From the NCBI GenBank assembly GCA_016935195.1, contig JAFGRL010000187.1, positions 1 to 32,798 of the forward strand: a stretch of DNA of 32,798 bases, given 5' to 3'. Shown piece by piece: positions 3,779-26,743 of the stretch. The notes below the pieces were generated by a model, which made no database searches, had not been told where the DNA came from, and saw nothing but the letters and a program-made list of their open reading frames with translations. Position 1 is the first letter of the stretch; each line of letters opens with the position of its first letter. Origin of the DNA: Sedimentisphaerales bacterium (lineage in GTDB: Bacteria > Planctomycetota > Phycisphaerae > Sedimentisphaerales > Anaerobacaceae). The position numbers were made by a program, and so were the translations under genes.

Positions 3779-4834
3779 TTAACTTCTTACTACAGTCGAT
3801 TCCTTAAGGCCTTTTTCCTTTATGGCTTTGAGCATTGTTGGTACGACTTCATTTAAATCACCAATTATCCTGTAGTGGGCAACCTGAAATATAGGAGCCG
3901 CAGGGTCATTATTTACAGCAACAATCTTCTGGCTCTGGTGCATCCCTGCCTGATGCTGAATTGCACCGCTGATCCCTATTGCTATATAAAGACTTGGCCT
4001 GACAGTAGTGCCGGTCTGGCCGACCTGATGGTCGCTGTCGATGAAACCCAAATCAACCGCCGCTCTGGTAGCTGCCGGTGCTGCGCCGAGGCAATTTGCC
4101 AAATCCCAGATAAGCCTGAAATTTTCTTTACTGCCCAAGCCCGCTCCGCCGGCAACGATTATTCTCGCAGCTTTTAGGTTCACTTTCTTTGGCCGCTTAT
4201 GTTCTTCGAGAATCTCTAAGGGCATATCCTCTTTTGATAGATGCACCTTTTCCTCGACCATTTCACCTTCCCTGCTAAGATCTGCCTCCGGCCGAACCAT
4301 TACTCCCTCACGGACCGTTGCCATCTGAGGCCAACGGTCATAGTTTATAATCGTAGCTATTATGTTCCCCCCAAAAGCAGGCCTGATTTGAAACAGCAGA
4401 TTCTCATAGACCTGCCCACTTTTTAACGGAGCATGATCACCAATCTGCAAATCTGTACAGTCGGCCGTTAGTCCTGCTTTTATCGCACTTGCAATTCGAG
4501 GGGCCAGGTCACGGCCTGTTGCGGTTGCACCGTAAAGCACAATTTGCGGCTTATGTTTTTCAATCAAACCGCAGATTACCCTGGCGTAACTATTCGTCTG
4601 ATAGTGTTCAAGGAAAGGATGTTCTGCTACGTATACCTTATCCGCACCGTACTGCACCAGGGTCTGGAAGTTTTGCTTGACATTATCACCCAGCAGAACC
4701 GCTGACAATTTAACATTGAGTGTATCAGCAAGCTGCCGGCCTTTACTGAGCAATTCAATCGGTGTATCATCGATCCGGCCGTTATGCTGCTGGGCAAACA
4801 CCCAAACCTCACCGTTTTTATTGACCTCAATCAT
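3779..4834 (-). CDS. etfA: Electron transfer flavoprotein, alpha subunit
   Basis: The FAD-carrying subunit of the soluble ETF heterodimer, which takes electrons from acyl-CoA dehydrogenases. It has 351 residues. The N-terminal half is an adenine-nucleotide-alpha-hydrolase-like domain (about 1-200). The C-terminal FAD domain begins at AARIIVAGGAGLG and contains the signature VGQTGTTVRPSLYIAIGISG and the end motif VAVNNDPAAPIFQVAHYRIIGD. The ATG start at 4834 is clear. It lies 44 nt downstream of etfB and 14 nt upstream of the dehydrogenase in one minus-strand operon. Confidence 0.95.
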   Translation of the reverse strand: MIEVNKNGEVWVFAQQHNGRIDDTPIELLSKGRQLADTLNVKLSAVLLGDNVKQNFQTLVQYGADKVYVAEHPFLEHYQTNSYARVICGLIEKHKPQIVLYGATATGRDLAPRIASAIKAGLTADCTDLQIGDHAPLKSGQVYENLLFQIRPAFGGNIIATIINYDRWPQMATVREGVMVRPEADLSREGEMVEEKVHLSKEDMPLEILEEHKRPKKVNLKAARIIVAGGAGLGSKENFRLIWDLANCLGAAPAATRAAVDLGFIDSDHQVGQTGTTVRPSLYIAIGISGAIQHQAGMHQSQKIVAVNNDPAAPIFQVAHYRIIGDLNEVVPTMLKAIKEKGLKESTVVRS

Positions 4835-4878
4835 AGCCTCTTAACCTTGAAACAATTCTTTCAATACAAAACAAAATC

Positions 4879-5790
4879 TCAAGCAATTGTTTTGTCTTCT
4901 ATGAGTTCGTGAACCAAATCAGCGATTCCCTGCTCACTCGGCTCAACCTCTTTACTCTCTTTTGCTGTAAGTACAACGCTTTGAATACGATGTACTTTGG
5001 TCGGCGAGCCGCTTCTGCCACACCAGTTTAAATCTGCTTCAAGAAAATCCAAATCCCAGTGTTTAATCAACAATCCTTTTTGATTTAATTGACTGCATTG
5101 TTGCTCAATCAGCTTTTTAATTTCAGCTTCGCTGAGTTCTGTTTTCTGAATTCTGACCTCCTGCTCGACCTCGATTGGTGTGCGTGCCTTTTTATATTTC
5201 ATCATTTTCTTAGCTGCCCGGACCCTCGGCTCATTTGCCTCACTGGTAACGGTCAGAAGTACCGGCAGGGCAGTCTTAACCTGCTGCCAGCCATTGCCGA
5301 TATTTCGGCGGGCTGTAATAATATCGCCTTTTAGGCCGATAAGCTTCTCAAGATATGTAATCTGCGACACACCGAGCTTTTCGGCAAGCTGAGGGCCGAC
5401 CTGGGCCGTATCACCGTCAATTGCCTGTCTGCCGCAAAGCACTATGTCATATCCGATTTTTTTGACCGCACAGCTAAGGATATAGCTGGTCGCCAGTGTA
5501 TCACTTGCCGCACAGCGAGCGTCGGTTATCAATATCGCATCATCGGCCCCCCGGTAAAGTGAATCACGCAGCACAGCCGCAGCAGATGGCGGCCCCATCG
5601 TTATTACGGTAACCGCTGAGCCATACTGCTGCTTAATCTCAAGTGCCAGCTCGAGTGCATTCAAATCTTCCGGATTGAAAATCGCCGGCAGCGATCCCCT
5701 GTTAACCGTGCCGTCATCGTTCATCGCCTGGCCGGTAACCCTTGCTGTATCAGGCACTTGCTTAATCAAAACAACACAATTATACGCCAC
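4879..5790 (-). CDS. etfB: Electron transfer flavoprotein, beta subunit
   Basis: The AMP-binding subunit of ETF, partner of the downstream EtfA. The protein begins VAYNCVVLIKQVPDTARV, the usual EtfB N-terminus, so I start at the GTG at 5790. A GGAG lies 7 nt upstream, and the 26 extra residues of the longer open frame look like untranslated A/T-rich leader. The result is 303 residues, longer than the usual 250-265. The family signature region ILCGRQAIDGDTAQVGPQLA is intact. The extra length is a C-terminal tail after the KKMMKYKKA segment, rich in charged residues. It is the first gene of the etfB-etfA-dehydrogenase-HAD operon. Confidence 0.94.
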   Translation of the reverse strand: MAYNCVVLIKQVPDTARVTGQAMNDDGTVNRGSLPAIFNPEDLNALELALEIKQQYGSAVTVITMGPPSAAAVLRDSLYRGADDAILITDARCAASDTLATSYILSCAVKKIGYDIVLCGRQAIDGDTAQVGPQLAEKLGVSQITYLEKLIGLKGDIITARRNIGNGWQQVKTALPVLLTVTSEANEPRVRAAKKMMKYKKARTPIEVEQEVRIQKTELSEAEIKKLIEQQCSQLNQKGLLIKHWDLDFLEADLNWCGRSGSPTKVHRIQSVVLTAKESKEVEPSEQGIADLVHELIEDKTIA

Positions 5791-6403: not shown

Positions 6404-7549
6404 ATGAGGCAAAGAGAACACCTTACACCGTATGGTAATAAACCGATGGTTACGCCGATAGTATCTTCGGTGAACTATGAATACGTTTCATTTGAGATAC
6501 TGCGCGAGATAACGGAAGGGGAAATTGACGGCTACACTTATCACCGCGACGACAATCCTACGGTTCGTGCGGTTGAAAAAGAGATTGCTTTGATGGAAAA
6601 AGCGGCGGACTGTGTAATTTGTACCTCCGGCATGGCCGCATCAACAATGATTTTTCTGACATATTTAAAGGCAGGTGATAACCTTCTGACTTTTCACGAT
6701 ACCTATGGTGCCATATACAAAGTTGCATTGATTCTTGAAAAATTGGGTGTGGAAATAACATGGCTTGACGCTGCTGAGGAAAAGAAGGTCGCCGAGTATA
6801 TAAAGCCGAATACCAGAATGATTTTCTGTGAAACCCCAAGCAATCCTCTGGTTAAAATTGTAGATATCAGATACCTCCGACAGCAGGCTGACCGGGTAGG
6901 AGCAATGCTTATTGTGGATAATACATTTGCCACTCCTTACCATCAATTACCTTTGACATTAGGTGCAGATTTGGTGGTCCACAGCGCAACCAAAGGGCTT
7001 GGTGGTCACAACGACCTTATGGCCGGTGCAGTAGCCTGCTCAACCAAAGATCATTACGACCAGTTGTGGTTTACGCGTCAGGCAATAGGTACAACCTTAG
7101 ACCCCTTCCCAGCCAACCTGCTGGAGCGAGGTTTGAAAACCTTTGAGATACGCGCTGCAAAAATGGCAGAAAATGCGATGGCTATCGCGGAATTTCTTTC
7201 AAGCCATCCGAAAATTACAAGAGTTTATTACCCGGGTCTGAAAAACGACCCGGGATATAAAACCGCGTGCAGGCAGATGAATAACGGCTTCGGAGGTATG
7301 CTGGCTTTTGATGTCGGCAAAAAGCAACTCCATGCCAAAAAATTTGTTGAAAAACTCGAGGTCATCTACCACGCAGTAAGCTTAGGATGTACCGAGACGC
7401 TGGTTTGTTTGCCTGTGCTTACTACAATGCTGTATCTGCCTCAAGAACTAAGGACGATATTTGGAGTCAGGCCAAACACCGTTCGCCTCTCTGCAGGAAT
7501 CGGTGATACAAAAGAGCTTATTGATGACCTGAAACAGGCTCTCGGCTAA
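6404..7549 (+). CDS. PLP-dependent trans-sulfuration enzyme (cystathionine gamma-synthase/lyase or methionine gamma-lyase type)
   Basis: A cytoplasmic fold-type I PLP enzyme of the Cys/Met metabolism family, 381 residues, which is full length. The phosphate-binding loop SGMAA is at 75-79, the PLP aspartate is in VDNTFATPYH (171-180), and the Schiff-base Lys197 is in HSATKGLGGH. The C-terminal substrate-binding stretch LGCTETLVCLP and VRLSAGIGD are typical. The family includes synthases, beta/gamma-lyases and methionine gamma-lyase, and these cannot be separated reliably from sequence alone. It is a single-gene unit, with no sulfur-assimilation partner next to it. Confidence 0.88.
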   Translation: MRQREHLTPYGNKPMVTPIVSSVNYEYVSFEILREITEGEIDGYTYHRDDNPTVRAVEKEIALMEKAADCVICTSGMAASTMIFLTYLKAGDNLLTFHDTYGAIYKVALILEKLGVEITWLDAAEEKKVAEYIKPNTRMIFCETPSNPLVKIVDIRYLRQQADRVGAMLIVDNTFATPYHQLPLTLGADLVVHSATKGLGGHNDLMAGAVACSTKDHYDQLWFTRQAIGTTLDPFPANLLERGLKTFEIRAAKMAENAMAIAEFLSSHPKITRVYYPGLKNDPGYKTACRQMNNGFGGMLAFDVGKKQLHAKKFVEKLEVIYHAVSLGCTETLVCLPVLTTMLYLPQELRTIFGVRPNTVRLSAGIGDTKELIDDLKQALG

Positions 7550-10024: not shown

Positions 10025-10083
10025 TCGTTATGCACAGCATGCCTTACAGCAGTGAATAGTTTTTAGGAGGCCGCATAAATGAT

Positions 10084-10147
10084 CTGAGCAACTCAACATG
10101 GAACTTTTCACTTCTGCAGGAAATTTGAGCTATTCAAATTAGTCTAT
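10084..10147. repeat. 64-bp direct repeat, copy A
   Basis: Matches 10947-11010 at 54 of 64 positions without gaps, in the same orientation. The shared cores are CTGAGCAAC, CTTTTCA and TTCTGCAGGAAA. Copy A lies between tilS and the 3' end of the shikimate kinase gene. Confidence 0.75.
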
Positions 10148-10202
10148 CAGGCAATACTTTCTATATGATTGGCTGATGTCGTTGCTTTCATAAGAACTTG
10201 AT

Positions 10203-10670
10203 TCAAAGTACGCTAAAGATTGCTTCAACACTTTGTTCGTGGCCTAAACCTGATAGATTGATGATTCTATCTGCCCATTTTTCGTATAACCAAATGCGTC
10301 TTTCATACAAAGAAGCTAACGATTCACCTGGTTCCAGCACCACACCGCGGGCATTAAGGTTGCCCAGCCTTTTTTCCAGTTCTCCCAACGGCAGCTGCAT
10401 ATAAATGATGCTGCCGGTGTTTTGCAGATGCTTCATCCCTTTGTCATAATAAACCACGCTGCCGCCGGTAGCGATTACCGCGTCCTTTATATCCAGACGC
10501 TGTATATACTGACACTCAATTTCACCGAATCGGCCCATCCCGTACTCTTCAATCAACCACTGCAAGCTTTTGCCCTCACCGGCCTGGATGAAAAGGTCTG
10601 TATCCACAAAATGAAATCCCAATCGCTTGGCCAGAAGTACACCCACAGTGCTCTTGCCGCAGCCCGGCAT
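10203..10670 (-). CDS. aroK: Shikimate kinase, with an in-frame TGA at the P-loop glycine
   Basis: Phosphorylates shikimate with ATP in the aromatic amino acid (chorismate) pathway. From the ATG at 10670 the product is 155 residues and begins MPGCGKSTVGVLLAKRLG, with shikimate-binding DTD (about 23-25), FGEIE, ATGGSVV, and the lid ARGVVLEPGE. The reading frame continues upstream as MENVKSNIVLI from an ATG at 10706, but the next codon, which should be the invariant first glycine of Walker A (GMPGCGKS), is TGA (10673-10671). A single base change from GGA would give this. The stop touches the internal ATG, so reinitiation is possible, but that product lacks the first beta strand and the loop glycine and would probably be poor or dead. 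Base error, nonsense mutation or a true short form remain open. Confidence 0.85.
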   Translation of the reverse strand: MPGCGKSTVGVLLAKRLGFHFVDTDLFIQAGEGKSLQWLIEEYGMGRFGEIECQYIQRLDIKDAVIATGGSVVYYDKGMKHLQNTGSIIYMQLPLGELEKRLGNLNARGVVLEPGESLASLYERRIWLYEKWADRIINLSGLGHEQSVEAIFSVL

Positions 10671-10706
10671 TCAAATCAATACAATGTTTGATTTGACATT
10701 TTCCAT

Positions 10707-11006
10707 CTTAAGCGATTGGTTATTTAACAAAGCCTTAAAATTCCACAATAATATCAAAAAGTCAGGCTCTTATAACTTATTATAGCAACAAATTTTAAAC
10801 AATTGCCAAAAATGTTTACAAAACTGCCAAAGAATCAGGCGGGCGGGAGAGGCTTAAAGGTGGTGCGCACCGGTTGATGCTGGCAAGGCTTGTAGAAAAA
10901 CAAAGACTGTAAGAAAGCAGGTTTTTTGGAACTGCGTTAATGTGGTCTGAGCAACCCGACATGAAACTTTTCAATTCTGCAGGAAAATTGATCAATTCAT
11001 AATAGT
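10707..11006. other. Intergenic stretch between shikimate kinase and the sigma remnant
   Basis: About 300 nt without a gene. It contains most of repeat copy B at its right end. The rest is A/T-rich with a short G/C-rich patch at about 10838-10885. No promoter was picked out with confidence. Confidence 0.35.
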
Positions 11007-11010
11007 TTAT
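10947..11010. repeat. 64-bp direct repeat, copy B
   Basis: The partner of the copy at 10084-10147 (54/64 identical). Here it covers the last codon and stop of the truncated minus-strand gene, so a 3' region may have been copied or may have recombined. Confidence 0.75.
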
Positions 11011-11315
11011 TTGGCGTTGAAAATATAGTTAGGGTCAAAAATATTCTTCTCGAATACAGGCTCGGTATCGAGAATAATCCTTTTGTCTGTAATTTGTCCA
11101 AGATAATGTTCATTGTTGAATTTGCGTTCATGGCGAATATGGCTTGGGTACCATTGGCCGGCTGGTGTCTGCTTTACCTCTAATGTTACCGTTCTGCTCT
11201 TCGTGTCATCAGGATATCGACCTTTTTCCATTTCCTGCTCGTGCTCCATTAGCAGATAATCTTTGGATGGGTCAAACCAGTACCTGTCAATTGTTGCTCC
11301 GATTATCTTCTGCCC
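11007..11315 (-). pseudogene. C-terminal remnant of an unidentified protein, fused by deletion to an ECF sigma gene
   Basis: From about 11309 to 11007 the minus strand reads KIIGATIDRYWFDPSKDYLL and continues through MEHEQEMEKGRYPDDTK to FDPNYIFNAK. This is a coherent soluble protein end that runs well upstream of its first ATG (11249), so it is the tail of a longer protein. Its upstream part is replaced, out of frame, by the start of an ECF sigma gene. I do not recognise the family. The DRYWFDP...DYLL style recalls extracytoplasmic regulator or lipoprotein-sorting-like proteins encoded after planctomycete ECF sigma factors, which would fit a deletion within one operon. Function is not assigned. 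Confidence 0.55.
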
Positions 11316-11512
11316 TTTGTTACCTGCCGGGCTACAGCCAGAAATATAGATGAAGTCAAGTCTTCGGCAATTTCTCTGTCGAAGAGCCGATGAACGCAGA
11401 AGCGGAAAATACGCTCATAATAAAGCTCATAAAGCTCTCCGAGAGCATCAGCATCCGTGCGGGCCCGCAGGATTAGGCTGTCGCTATCCGTTTGTTTCGC
11501 GTTTTTCACCAT
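11303..11512 (-). pseudogene. Truncated ECF-type sigma factor (region 2 only)
   Basis: 69 residues with an intact start (ATG at 11512) and the sigma-70 region 2.1-2.2 pattern DALGELYELYYERIFRFC...REIAEDLTSSIFLAVA. After that the sequence changes to QVTKGRR and stops. The rest of region 2 (including -10 recognition) and all of region 4 are missing. A full ECF factor is about 170-200 residues. The downstream DNA codes for the tail of another protein in a different frame, so this is a deletion junction rather than a point frameshift. The product could not function as a sigma factor. Confidence 0.75.
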
Positions 11513-11580
11513 AACAATAGCTGCTACACTACTTAAATTGCGCAGGATGCCAATATGTTACATTGATTTACAAAAATATC

Positions 11581-24678: not shown

Positions 24679-24783
24679 GTCAAATCGTCAGAATGTTTAA
24701 CTAACTTTTAATTGTACCGTAGTTTGAATTGTGGCATATTTTGAAAAAATTCTCATAACTCTAACGGCCACAGGAGGTTAATA

Positions 24784-24989
24784 ATGCTTGTTTTGAGCAG
24801 AAAAAAAACGAGTCGATAGTCATAGGCGATGATATCGAGGTCAATATAACCGATATCCGCGGCGACAGGGTCAGACTCGCTATCAAAGCACCCAAAGAAA
24901 TTCCCGTGCACCGCAAAGAAATATACCTTGCCATCCAGGCCGAAAAAGTCCATCAGCTAAAGCTGCAACAAAACCTTAAGGAAGCCTGA
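24784..24989 (+). pseudogene. csrA: Carbon storage regulator CsrA, frame broken at an A8 run
   Basis: CsrA is a small dimeric RNA-binding protein that binds GGA motifs near ribosome-binding sites to control translation. An AGGAGG 6 nt before the ATG is ideal. The zero frame reads [11 protein letters not shown] then stops. If the A8 run (24801-24808) is read with one extra A, or with a -1 shift, the frame becomes MLVLSRKK then [20 protein letters not shown] then [20 protein letters not shown] and on to LKEA, 68 residues, a complete and well-conserved CsrA including the VHRKE RNA-binding element. The codons before the run form A-AAA-AAA in exactly the phase needed for a -1 ribosomal slip into AAC GAG. 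It could be recoding, transcriptional slippage, a sequencing error in the homopolymer, or a recent null mutation. The conserved downstream frame argues against an old pseudogene. Confidence 0.85.
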
Positions 24990-25097
24990 ACCTAAAATCT
25001 GTAAACAGATACGCCAATTTATATTAAATATCAAAATGCAAAAATCAAAATTACAATGTAAAAATCGTAACCGTTCACAGGTGTAAACCTCGTTTTT

Positions 25098-25193
25098 TGT
25101 CATTGCGAAAGGTTTTACGATGAAGCAATCTCTACTTATCAACCGTTGAGATTGCCGCGCCCTGCACCATACGGTACAGGGCTCACAATGACA
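25098..25193. repeat. Palindromic TGTCATTGCGA-family element, full-length copy
   Basis: About 96 nt bounded by TGTCATTGCGA (25098-25108) and an inverted near-copy, TCACAATGACA (25183-25193). Inside are the inverted pairs GCAATCTC/GAGATTGC (25125-25132 and 25148-25155) and GCCCTG/CAGGGC (25159-25164 and 25177-25182). It is a non-coding REP/MITE-like element. Similar TGTCATTGCGA palindromes are widespread in bacterial genomes. Confidence 0.65.
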
Positions 25194-25414
25194 TAAAATG
25201 TACATCTTAGCTGTGAACACTTACGGAATAACTAACTGCTCACATGGAGCCAAAAGCACCCAGGAGTGTAAACAACACGAGATATTAAACTGTTTGGCAT
25301 TTTGTACAGACTGTATAATCATTGTTGTTCCTATAGCCTTTCTGATAATATAGCGGAATTGGACTTGCAGAACAAAAGGACACAACCTATCACCTCTTGA
25401 TGGAGACCTGGACC
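25194..25414. other. Intergenic leader of the exported methyltransferase gene
   Basis: No gene. Two -10-like boxes occur on the plus strand, TATAAT at 25314-25319 and GATAAT at 25344-25349. The second pairs with a TTGTTG (25322-25327) at 16 nt spacing. Either could serve the downstream gene. Confidence 0.35.
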
Positions 25415-26743
25415 ATGAAGGCATTACGCACTTTTCTCGCCATAGGTGTAGTGGTGGCGGTTCTTGAGTGGTCATACGTCGGTTCTGCCGGAACCAACAT
25501 GCCACCCGTCCGCTTGTCCATTCCCTACGTGGTCAGTCGTAACGATGCTGTCCAGGATATGCTCTGGATGGCGAATGTTGGAAAGGACGATGTTGTGTAT
25601 GATCTCGGTTCGGGCGACGGGCGCATCGTGATTGCGGCAGTCCACGATTTCAGCGCTCGTCGAGCGGTTGGCATCGAAATGGCCCCCGAACGCATCCGGC
25701 AAAGCAGGGAAAACGCACAGAAAGCTGGAGTGACAGACCGAGTCGAGTTTATTCATGGCGATCTGTTCACGAACGACTTCCGGCAAGCCAGCGTCATCAC
25801 TCTGTTTCTTGGCCACCAGCCGAACATCAAGCTTCGCACCAAGATGCTCAGCATTCTCAAGCCTGGTACGCGCATCGTTTCCCATCAATTCAATATGGGT
25901 GAGTGGCAACCAGACAAGACGCAGACGGTTCGAACGGTTTATTTCGGGATGTACGGCACAATATTTAGTCCGTTCAGTGAGAACCTGTGCGTGCCCGACT
26001 ATACCGGTAACGAATTAGACCCTTATGAAGGTGACAGGATTTTTATGTGGGTGGTTCCGGCTCCGGTCGCCGGCATATGGCGGGCAGTGGTAGAGACAGC
26101 GCAGGGACAGCAGAATCTCCAATTGACTTTGCATCAGCGTCTGTCAAAGGTCTCCGGAAGGTTTCAGCTTTCCGGAAAGACGAGTCTGGAAGGACACGCA
26201 AATGTTGACTTATGGGGCAACCACATGCGGTTTTGGTGCACCCCCGCCGGCATGCCCTATGGCCAGTTAGAGCTGAGGTTCGATGGGCATGTGCACGGGA
26301 ATACGATGAAGGGAACTCTGGCGGTGAGGGATCGTGGTGATCTTAGTCAGTCCCAATGGCAAGCCCAACGAGACAAAGTGGACTACACCGGCACGTGGGA
26401 GTGGTCCTGCGCGACCGGAACACGTTCGGTCAGACTGCGTATTGAGCAGCACGATGGTCATTTGATTGCGACGTATCTGGATAGAGACCAAGCATTACCT
26501 GTTACAGATTTCTACGATTTCGGAGGAGGGTTCTACTTCACCCTCCTGATTGGTCGCAAAGCAAACAGCGTCAGAATGACGGAGGATACCGGCTGGTTGA
26601 TCGGCAAAGGACTTTTAGAAAACGGCCAGCTCAAAGGAACGATTGAGTTCTACCCATACGGAGACATGCCAGACATGGCTGGTGAAAGAAAAACATCCCA
26701 GGCCGTGATTCGGGATTGGGCGCCCCGCTTGATTAAGCCATGA
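25415..26743 (+). CDS. Exported class I SAM methyltransferase-like protein with a C-terminal extension
   Basis: I start at the ATG at 25415, with a GGAG 9 nt upstream, giving 442 residues. An N-terminal signal segment (MKALRTFLAIGVVVAVLEW, then GSAG) predicts export or anchoring. Residues about 40-170 hold a class I methyltransferase core: motif I VYDLGSGDGRIVIAA, an acidic post-II residue in VGIEMAPERI, and HGDLF. The order and the DLGSGDG form resemble DOT1-like and related families. The remaining 250 residues look beta-rich and have no family I recognise. The segments VSGRFQLSGKTSLEG and IEQHDGHLIATYLD look like repeats of one motif. The codon use is more G/C-rich than that of its neighbours, which suggests transfer. 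A SAM enzyme outside the cytoplasm would lack its usual cofactor supply, so its role is open. Confidence 0.75.
   Translation: MKALRTFLAIGVVVAVLEWSYVGSAGTNMPPVRLSIPYVVSRNDAVQDMLWMANVGKDDVVYDLGSGDGRIVIAAVHDFSARRAVGIEMAPERIRQSRENAQKAGVTDRVEFIHGDLFTNDFRQASVITLFLGHQPNIKLRTKMLSILKPGTRIVSHQFNMGEWQPDKTQTVRTVYFGMYGTIFSPFSENLCVPDYTGNELDPYEGDRIFMWVVPAPVAGIWRAVVETAQGQQNLQLTLHQRLSKVSGRFQLSGKTSLEGHANVDLWGNHMRFWCTPAGMPYGQLELRFDGHVHGNTMKGTLAVRDRGDLSQSQWQAQRDKVDYTGTWEWSCATGTRSVRLRIEQHDGHLIATYLDRDQALPVTDFYDFGGGFYFTLLIGRKANSVRMTEDTGWLIGKGLLENGQLKGTIEFYPYGDMPDMAGERKTSQAVIRDWAPRLIKP

Follow-up and report, generated by a model that had tools for sequence, protein, structure and literature searches.

A premature TGA at the first Walker A glycine of a homoserine-kinase-like SKI-fold gene in a Sedimentisphaerales draft genome

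The window, by which we denote the whole stretch of DNA analyzed here (32,798 nucleotides), carries on its reverse strand a SKI-fold kinase gene whose reading frame is interrupted close to its start (table 1). Its translation gives MENVKSNIVLI, a stop, and then MPGCGKSTVGVLLAK...FSVL up to the terminal stop, and the same frame is also given as MENVKSNIVLI, the stop and MPGCGKSTVGVLLAKRLGFHFVDTD.... The TGA falls within the Walker A motif GMPGCGKST, from which the first glycine is lost, with 11 codons from the native ATG to the stop; the complete pattern GxxxxGK[ST] of P-loop kinases is found in all relatives and is broken in this copy. The open frame downstream of the TGA gave a full-length match to Pfam SKI with 103.9 bits (E = 1.7e-29), and a Pfam SKI search of the genome returned this gene only. 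The translation bore out what the initial annotation had read from the locus, namely the position of the stop, its assignment to Walker A and the one-base difference from a glycine codon, and we confirmed that the TGA is a true departure from an invariant position in the assembly and not the product of a wrong frame. The gene is flanked by the two copies of a 73-nt direct repeat; at the search threshold applied, the genome yielded no further copy.

Table 1. Features in and around the interrupted kinase gene (positions in the window)
Feature	Position	Strand	Basis
SKI-fold kinase gene, interrupted, homoserine-kinase-like; 168 codons including both stops	10203..10706	-	Translation; Pfam SKI; NF040667 as best NCBIfam model
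In-frame TGA at the first Walker A glycine position	10671..10673	-	Sequence; Gly in 31/31 other distinct relatives
ATG abutting the TGA on its 3' side, the ordinary Met of GMPGxGKS, kept in nearly all relatives	10668..10670	-	Alignment of relatives
Open part, 155 codons: remaining P-loop and kinase body, other invariant residues unchanged	10206..10670	-	Translation; alignment
73-nt direct repeat, first copy, just past the kinase gene on its 3' side	10080..10152	+	Repeat search
73-nt direct repeat, second copy (82% identity), at the 3' terminus of the neighboring gene remnant	10943..11015	+	Repeat search
Gene remnants: truncated ECF sigma N-terminus, then tail of a LolA-like protein in another frame	11007..11545	-	Translation

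Relatives were taken from the same family and order as the source genome; a scan of genome contigs for further relatives returned distant ones only. The comparison with sister genomes that the initial annotation had proposed gave a uniform answer, as all 31 distinct relatives have a glycine codon where the source genome, and it alone, has TGA (GGT in 12, GGG in 10, GGC in 7 and GGA in 2), and the residues following that glycine are usually Met and Pro. Among the columns that are invariant in the other 29 sequences of the alignment, none is broken by the interrupted protein except the one occupied by the TGA. Substitutions relative to the nearest relative numbered 55, 30, and 89 at the three codon positions, mostly at third positions, with a low dN of 0.30 and a saturated dS. 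Because the invariant columns are intact and dN is low against a saturated dS, the kinase gene bears no independent sign of decay, and since its invariant residues are otherwise unbroken, the lesion is either very recent or a consensus error. A search of 89 family genomes for a second gene of this kinase type with an internal stop found none.

The initial annotation had named the gene a shikimate kinase (AroK), an identity that the family profiles do not favor. Among the NCBIfam models, the Desulfovibrio-type homoserine kinase NF040667 ranked first with 155.9 bits, and the best of the shikimate kinase equivalog models stayed at 78.4 bits versus a cut-off of 161. Four intact relatives agreed with this ranking (167-190 bits for NF040667 and 96-117 for the best shikimate kinase model), and the two controls, one a shikimate kinase encoded on its own and the other the kinase part of an AroK-AroC fusion, preferred the shikimate kinase models. 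As neither the interrupted gene nor the four intact relatives pass the curated NF040667 cut-off of 197 bits, we claim likeness to this family and not membership in it. At the residue level, we take the Asp of DxD, the Arg of FRxxE, the GGG motif, and the Arg of RPLL to be the shikimate-site residues of shikimate kinase, a set that the interrupted protein holds in part: the Asp of DxD and the Arg of RGVV are present, the Arg of FRxxE is replaced by Gly (mostly by Cys in the relatives), and GGG reads GGS, as in the homoserine-kinase-like branch. The protein thus shares with AroK/AroL the P-loop, the DTD motif, the Arg of the RGVV/RPLL region, and the lid-region Arg, but differs from them in lacking the FRxxE Arg and the GGG motif and in its far lower scores with the shikimate kinase models. 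With the Desulfovibrio enzyme DvMF_0971 it shares the SKI fold and a full-length profile match clearly above the shikimate kinase models, whereas its score lies under the family cut-off, its homoserine substrate is putative, and the stop is present only here. Judged from these comparisons, the interrupted gene probably belongs to a homoserine-kinase-like branch of SKI proteins and is not AroK. DvMF_0971, the founding member of NF040667, itself carried a shikimate kinase annotation at first and was later shown to complement an E. coli thrB strain (PMC5764234). The lesson for annotation is that the name shikimate kinase should be withheld from SKI-domain genes in this branch.

The distribution of the gene and the threonine pathway of the source genome bear on its dispensability. 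No SKI match was found in 57 of the 89 family genomes, and the homoserine-kinase-like gene is patchy, being absent from most of them. The source genome encodes hom, a TIGR02535 protein, and aspartokinase (lysC) in one operon-like row (contig C95, L099:11687-15578), and ThrC is also present. The TIGR02535 protein scored 511.8 bits against a cut-off of 446.3, and members of this family were found in 60 of the 60 relatives searched at E ≤ 0.001, with 53 over the cut-off. BT2402, a TIGR02535 protein of the phosphoglycerate-mutase type, is needed for threonine synthesis, yet it failed to complement E. coli thrB (PMC7311316). TIGR02535 is proposed as an alternative homoserine kinase, that is, for the same step as the SKI-type enzyme, from which it differs in its unrelated fold and in a role that is still putative; its placement beside hom and lysC would support a function in threonine synthesis. 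A GHMP-type ThrB or an archaeal-type shikimate kinase was also considered and rejected, the three GHMP proteins of the genome being a galactokinase, an HddA-like sugar kinase, and IspE. Since most family members lack the SKI-fold gene and this genome has the hom-TIGR02535-lysC operon, its loss is plausible.

We therefore regard one nonsense change of recent date, in a homoserine-kinase-like SKI-fold kinase gene that the cell can do without, as the probable explanation, both for the base itself and for the account as a whole, with considerable room left for doubt. Ribosomes starting at the native ATG would be released by the intact RF2 once they had read 11 codons, and any restarted product, devoid of the first β strand and of the first GxxxxGKS glycine, would be expected to be inactive. 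The loss would be tolerated given the patchy presence of the gene in the family, with threonine served by hom-TIGR02535-lysC and ThrC. The stop, the conservation of the position, the profile-based family likeness, the operon, and RF2 are established by the data; from them we infer that the organism itself carries this base, that kinase activity is lost, and that redundancy covers the loss.

A consensus or assembly error, or a base from a minority strain, in an organism whose kinase is intact is possible, though we hold it doubtful. A single base is at stake, the gene is elsewhere intact with its other invariant residues unchanged, and the source assembly, of the metagenome type, is a draft in 199 contigs whose contamination is 6.13%. 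A codon-score scan of about 315 kb of the genome, which required 50 codons on each side of a stop and is blind to stops as start-proximal as the kinase TGA, speaks against this reading: it gave no convincing mid-gene stop, so such errors are not frequent in the genome. Its top hits, judged by eye, were junctions between adjacent genes (AroA/AroC and TIGR02535/lysC). The neighboring genes are, moreover, truly decayed. The ECF sigma remnant retains a partial Sigma70_r2 match below cut-off (E = 2.2e-4), the LolA-like tail has a 28% match to a relative's gene, and the two were apparently joined through a deletion; this decayed stretch counts in favor of a genuine TGA. ECF sigma and LolA-like genes also occur near the kinase gene in relatives of genus g31. 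A conserved ECF sigma/LolA-like pair beside the kinase was nevertheless rejected, and we make no firm claim of synteny, because the remnant sigma best matches a gene on the other side. A frame with two stops at 24753-25505 of the reverse strand was likewise considered as a second interrupted gene and was ruled out by its negative coding score.

That the interrupted gene was the sole shikimate kinase, its loss leaving an aromatic auxotroph, has a small probability. The genome has no other SKI match, and it encodes AroA and an unfused AroC of 440 aa side by side (G000 contig C21, L068:2827-5442), but the profiles prefer homoserine kinase, most of the branch lacks the FRxxE Arg and carries GGS for GGG, and the majority of the family has no SKI match at all. 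The initial annotation had inferred aromatic auxotrophy or a second kinase. The first inference fails because the protein is probably not AroK and because SKI proteins are missing from so many family genomes; hence, auxotrophy should not be deduced from SKI genes of the homoserine-kinase-like branch. As to the second, a search for another aroK or aroL returned neither a further SKI match nor a canonical AroK in this draft, AroA and AroC being present, and given the listed completeness of 96% a shikimate kinase gene may be missing from the assembly. The recognizable shikimate kinase of the relatives resides mostly in an AroK-AroC fusion, with the AroK domain at the AroC N-terminus in many of them (L028, L030, and similar loci; ORFs of ~522-560 aa), an arrangement dismissed for the source genome, where AroC stands unfused. 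AroA and AroC are kept here without a recognizable kinase, as may hold for most of the family, and it is conceivable, if rather unlikely, that a non-homologous, undescribed shikimate kinase is at work in the lineage; our literature search brought up no paper dealing with the absence of a shikimate kinase from bacteria of this kind. This raises the question of which enzyme phosphorylates shikimate in family genomes that have AroA and AroC and no SKI protein, a matter that does not hinge on the TGA in the kinase gene.

Termination followed by reinitiation at the abutting ATG, as the initial annotation suggested, is feasible on paper, since the ATG lies directly 3' of the TGA and the downstream frame is conserved. 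Its product, however, would be without strand 1 and without the first glycine of the P-loop, both of which every relative has. As the relatives have glycine usually followed by Met, the ATG encodes the ordinary second residue of GMPGxGKS and is no sign of an evolved restart site. No relative has a gene layout of this sort, and a functional shorter kinase made in this way is accordingly given a very small probability.

Readthrough or recoding of the TGA, by selenocysteine or by a suppressor tRNA inserting an amino acid, is very unlikely and has next to no claim on our belief, for although the frame stays intact past the TGA, no tRNA-Sec was found in the genome at gathering score (the best three near-misses being two tRNA-Ser and one tRNA-Leu), the RNA 3' of the TGA folded no better than its shuffles (z 0.15 to 0.66), and every relative has glycine and nothing else at the position. 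The combination of a tRNA-Sec and a SECIS-like hairpin after the TGA, expected of a selenoprotein, was not detected here, and no Rfam match was detected near the kinase gene. A profile search placed RF1 and RF2 over their cut-offs; TGA terminates 42 of the 145 long ORFs having a stop in the 315-kb genome sample as well as several conserved genes of the window, which upholds the earlier exclusion of a general TGA-to-glycine recoding. The TGA is then an ordinary single-nonsense interruption, most likely the recent loss of a gene absent from most relatives or else an assembly error, and neither a new decoding trick nor evidence of auxotrophy.

Two further observations were made among the SKI proteins of the relatives. 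The other internal stops in the 89-genome search all came from one genome, G021, and from pieces of other SKI proteins; on its contig C326, an intact copy is accompanied by SKI-domain gene fragments (4523-4925 and 6911-7141) interrupted by TAG and TGA, which are apparently decayed duplicates. The kinase gene of genome G058 (L020/L024) carries an in-frame insertion of about 23 residues, NPVRDKVSETPDGRQRRPVSNGM, which is possibly a translated repeat element.
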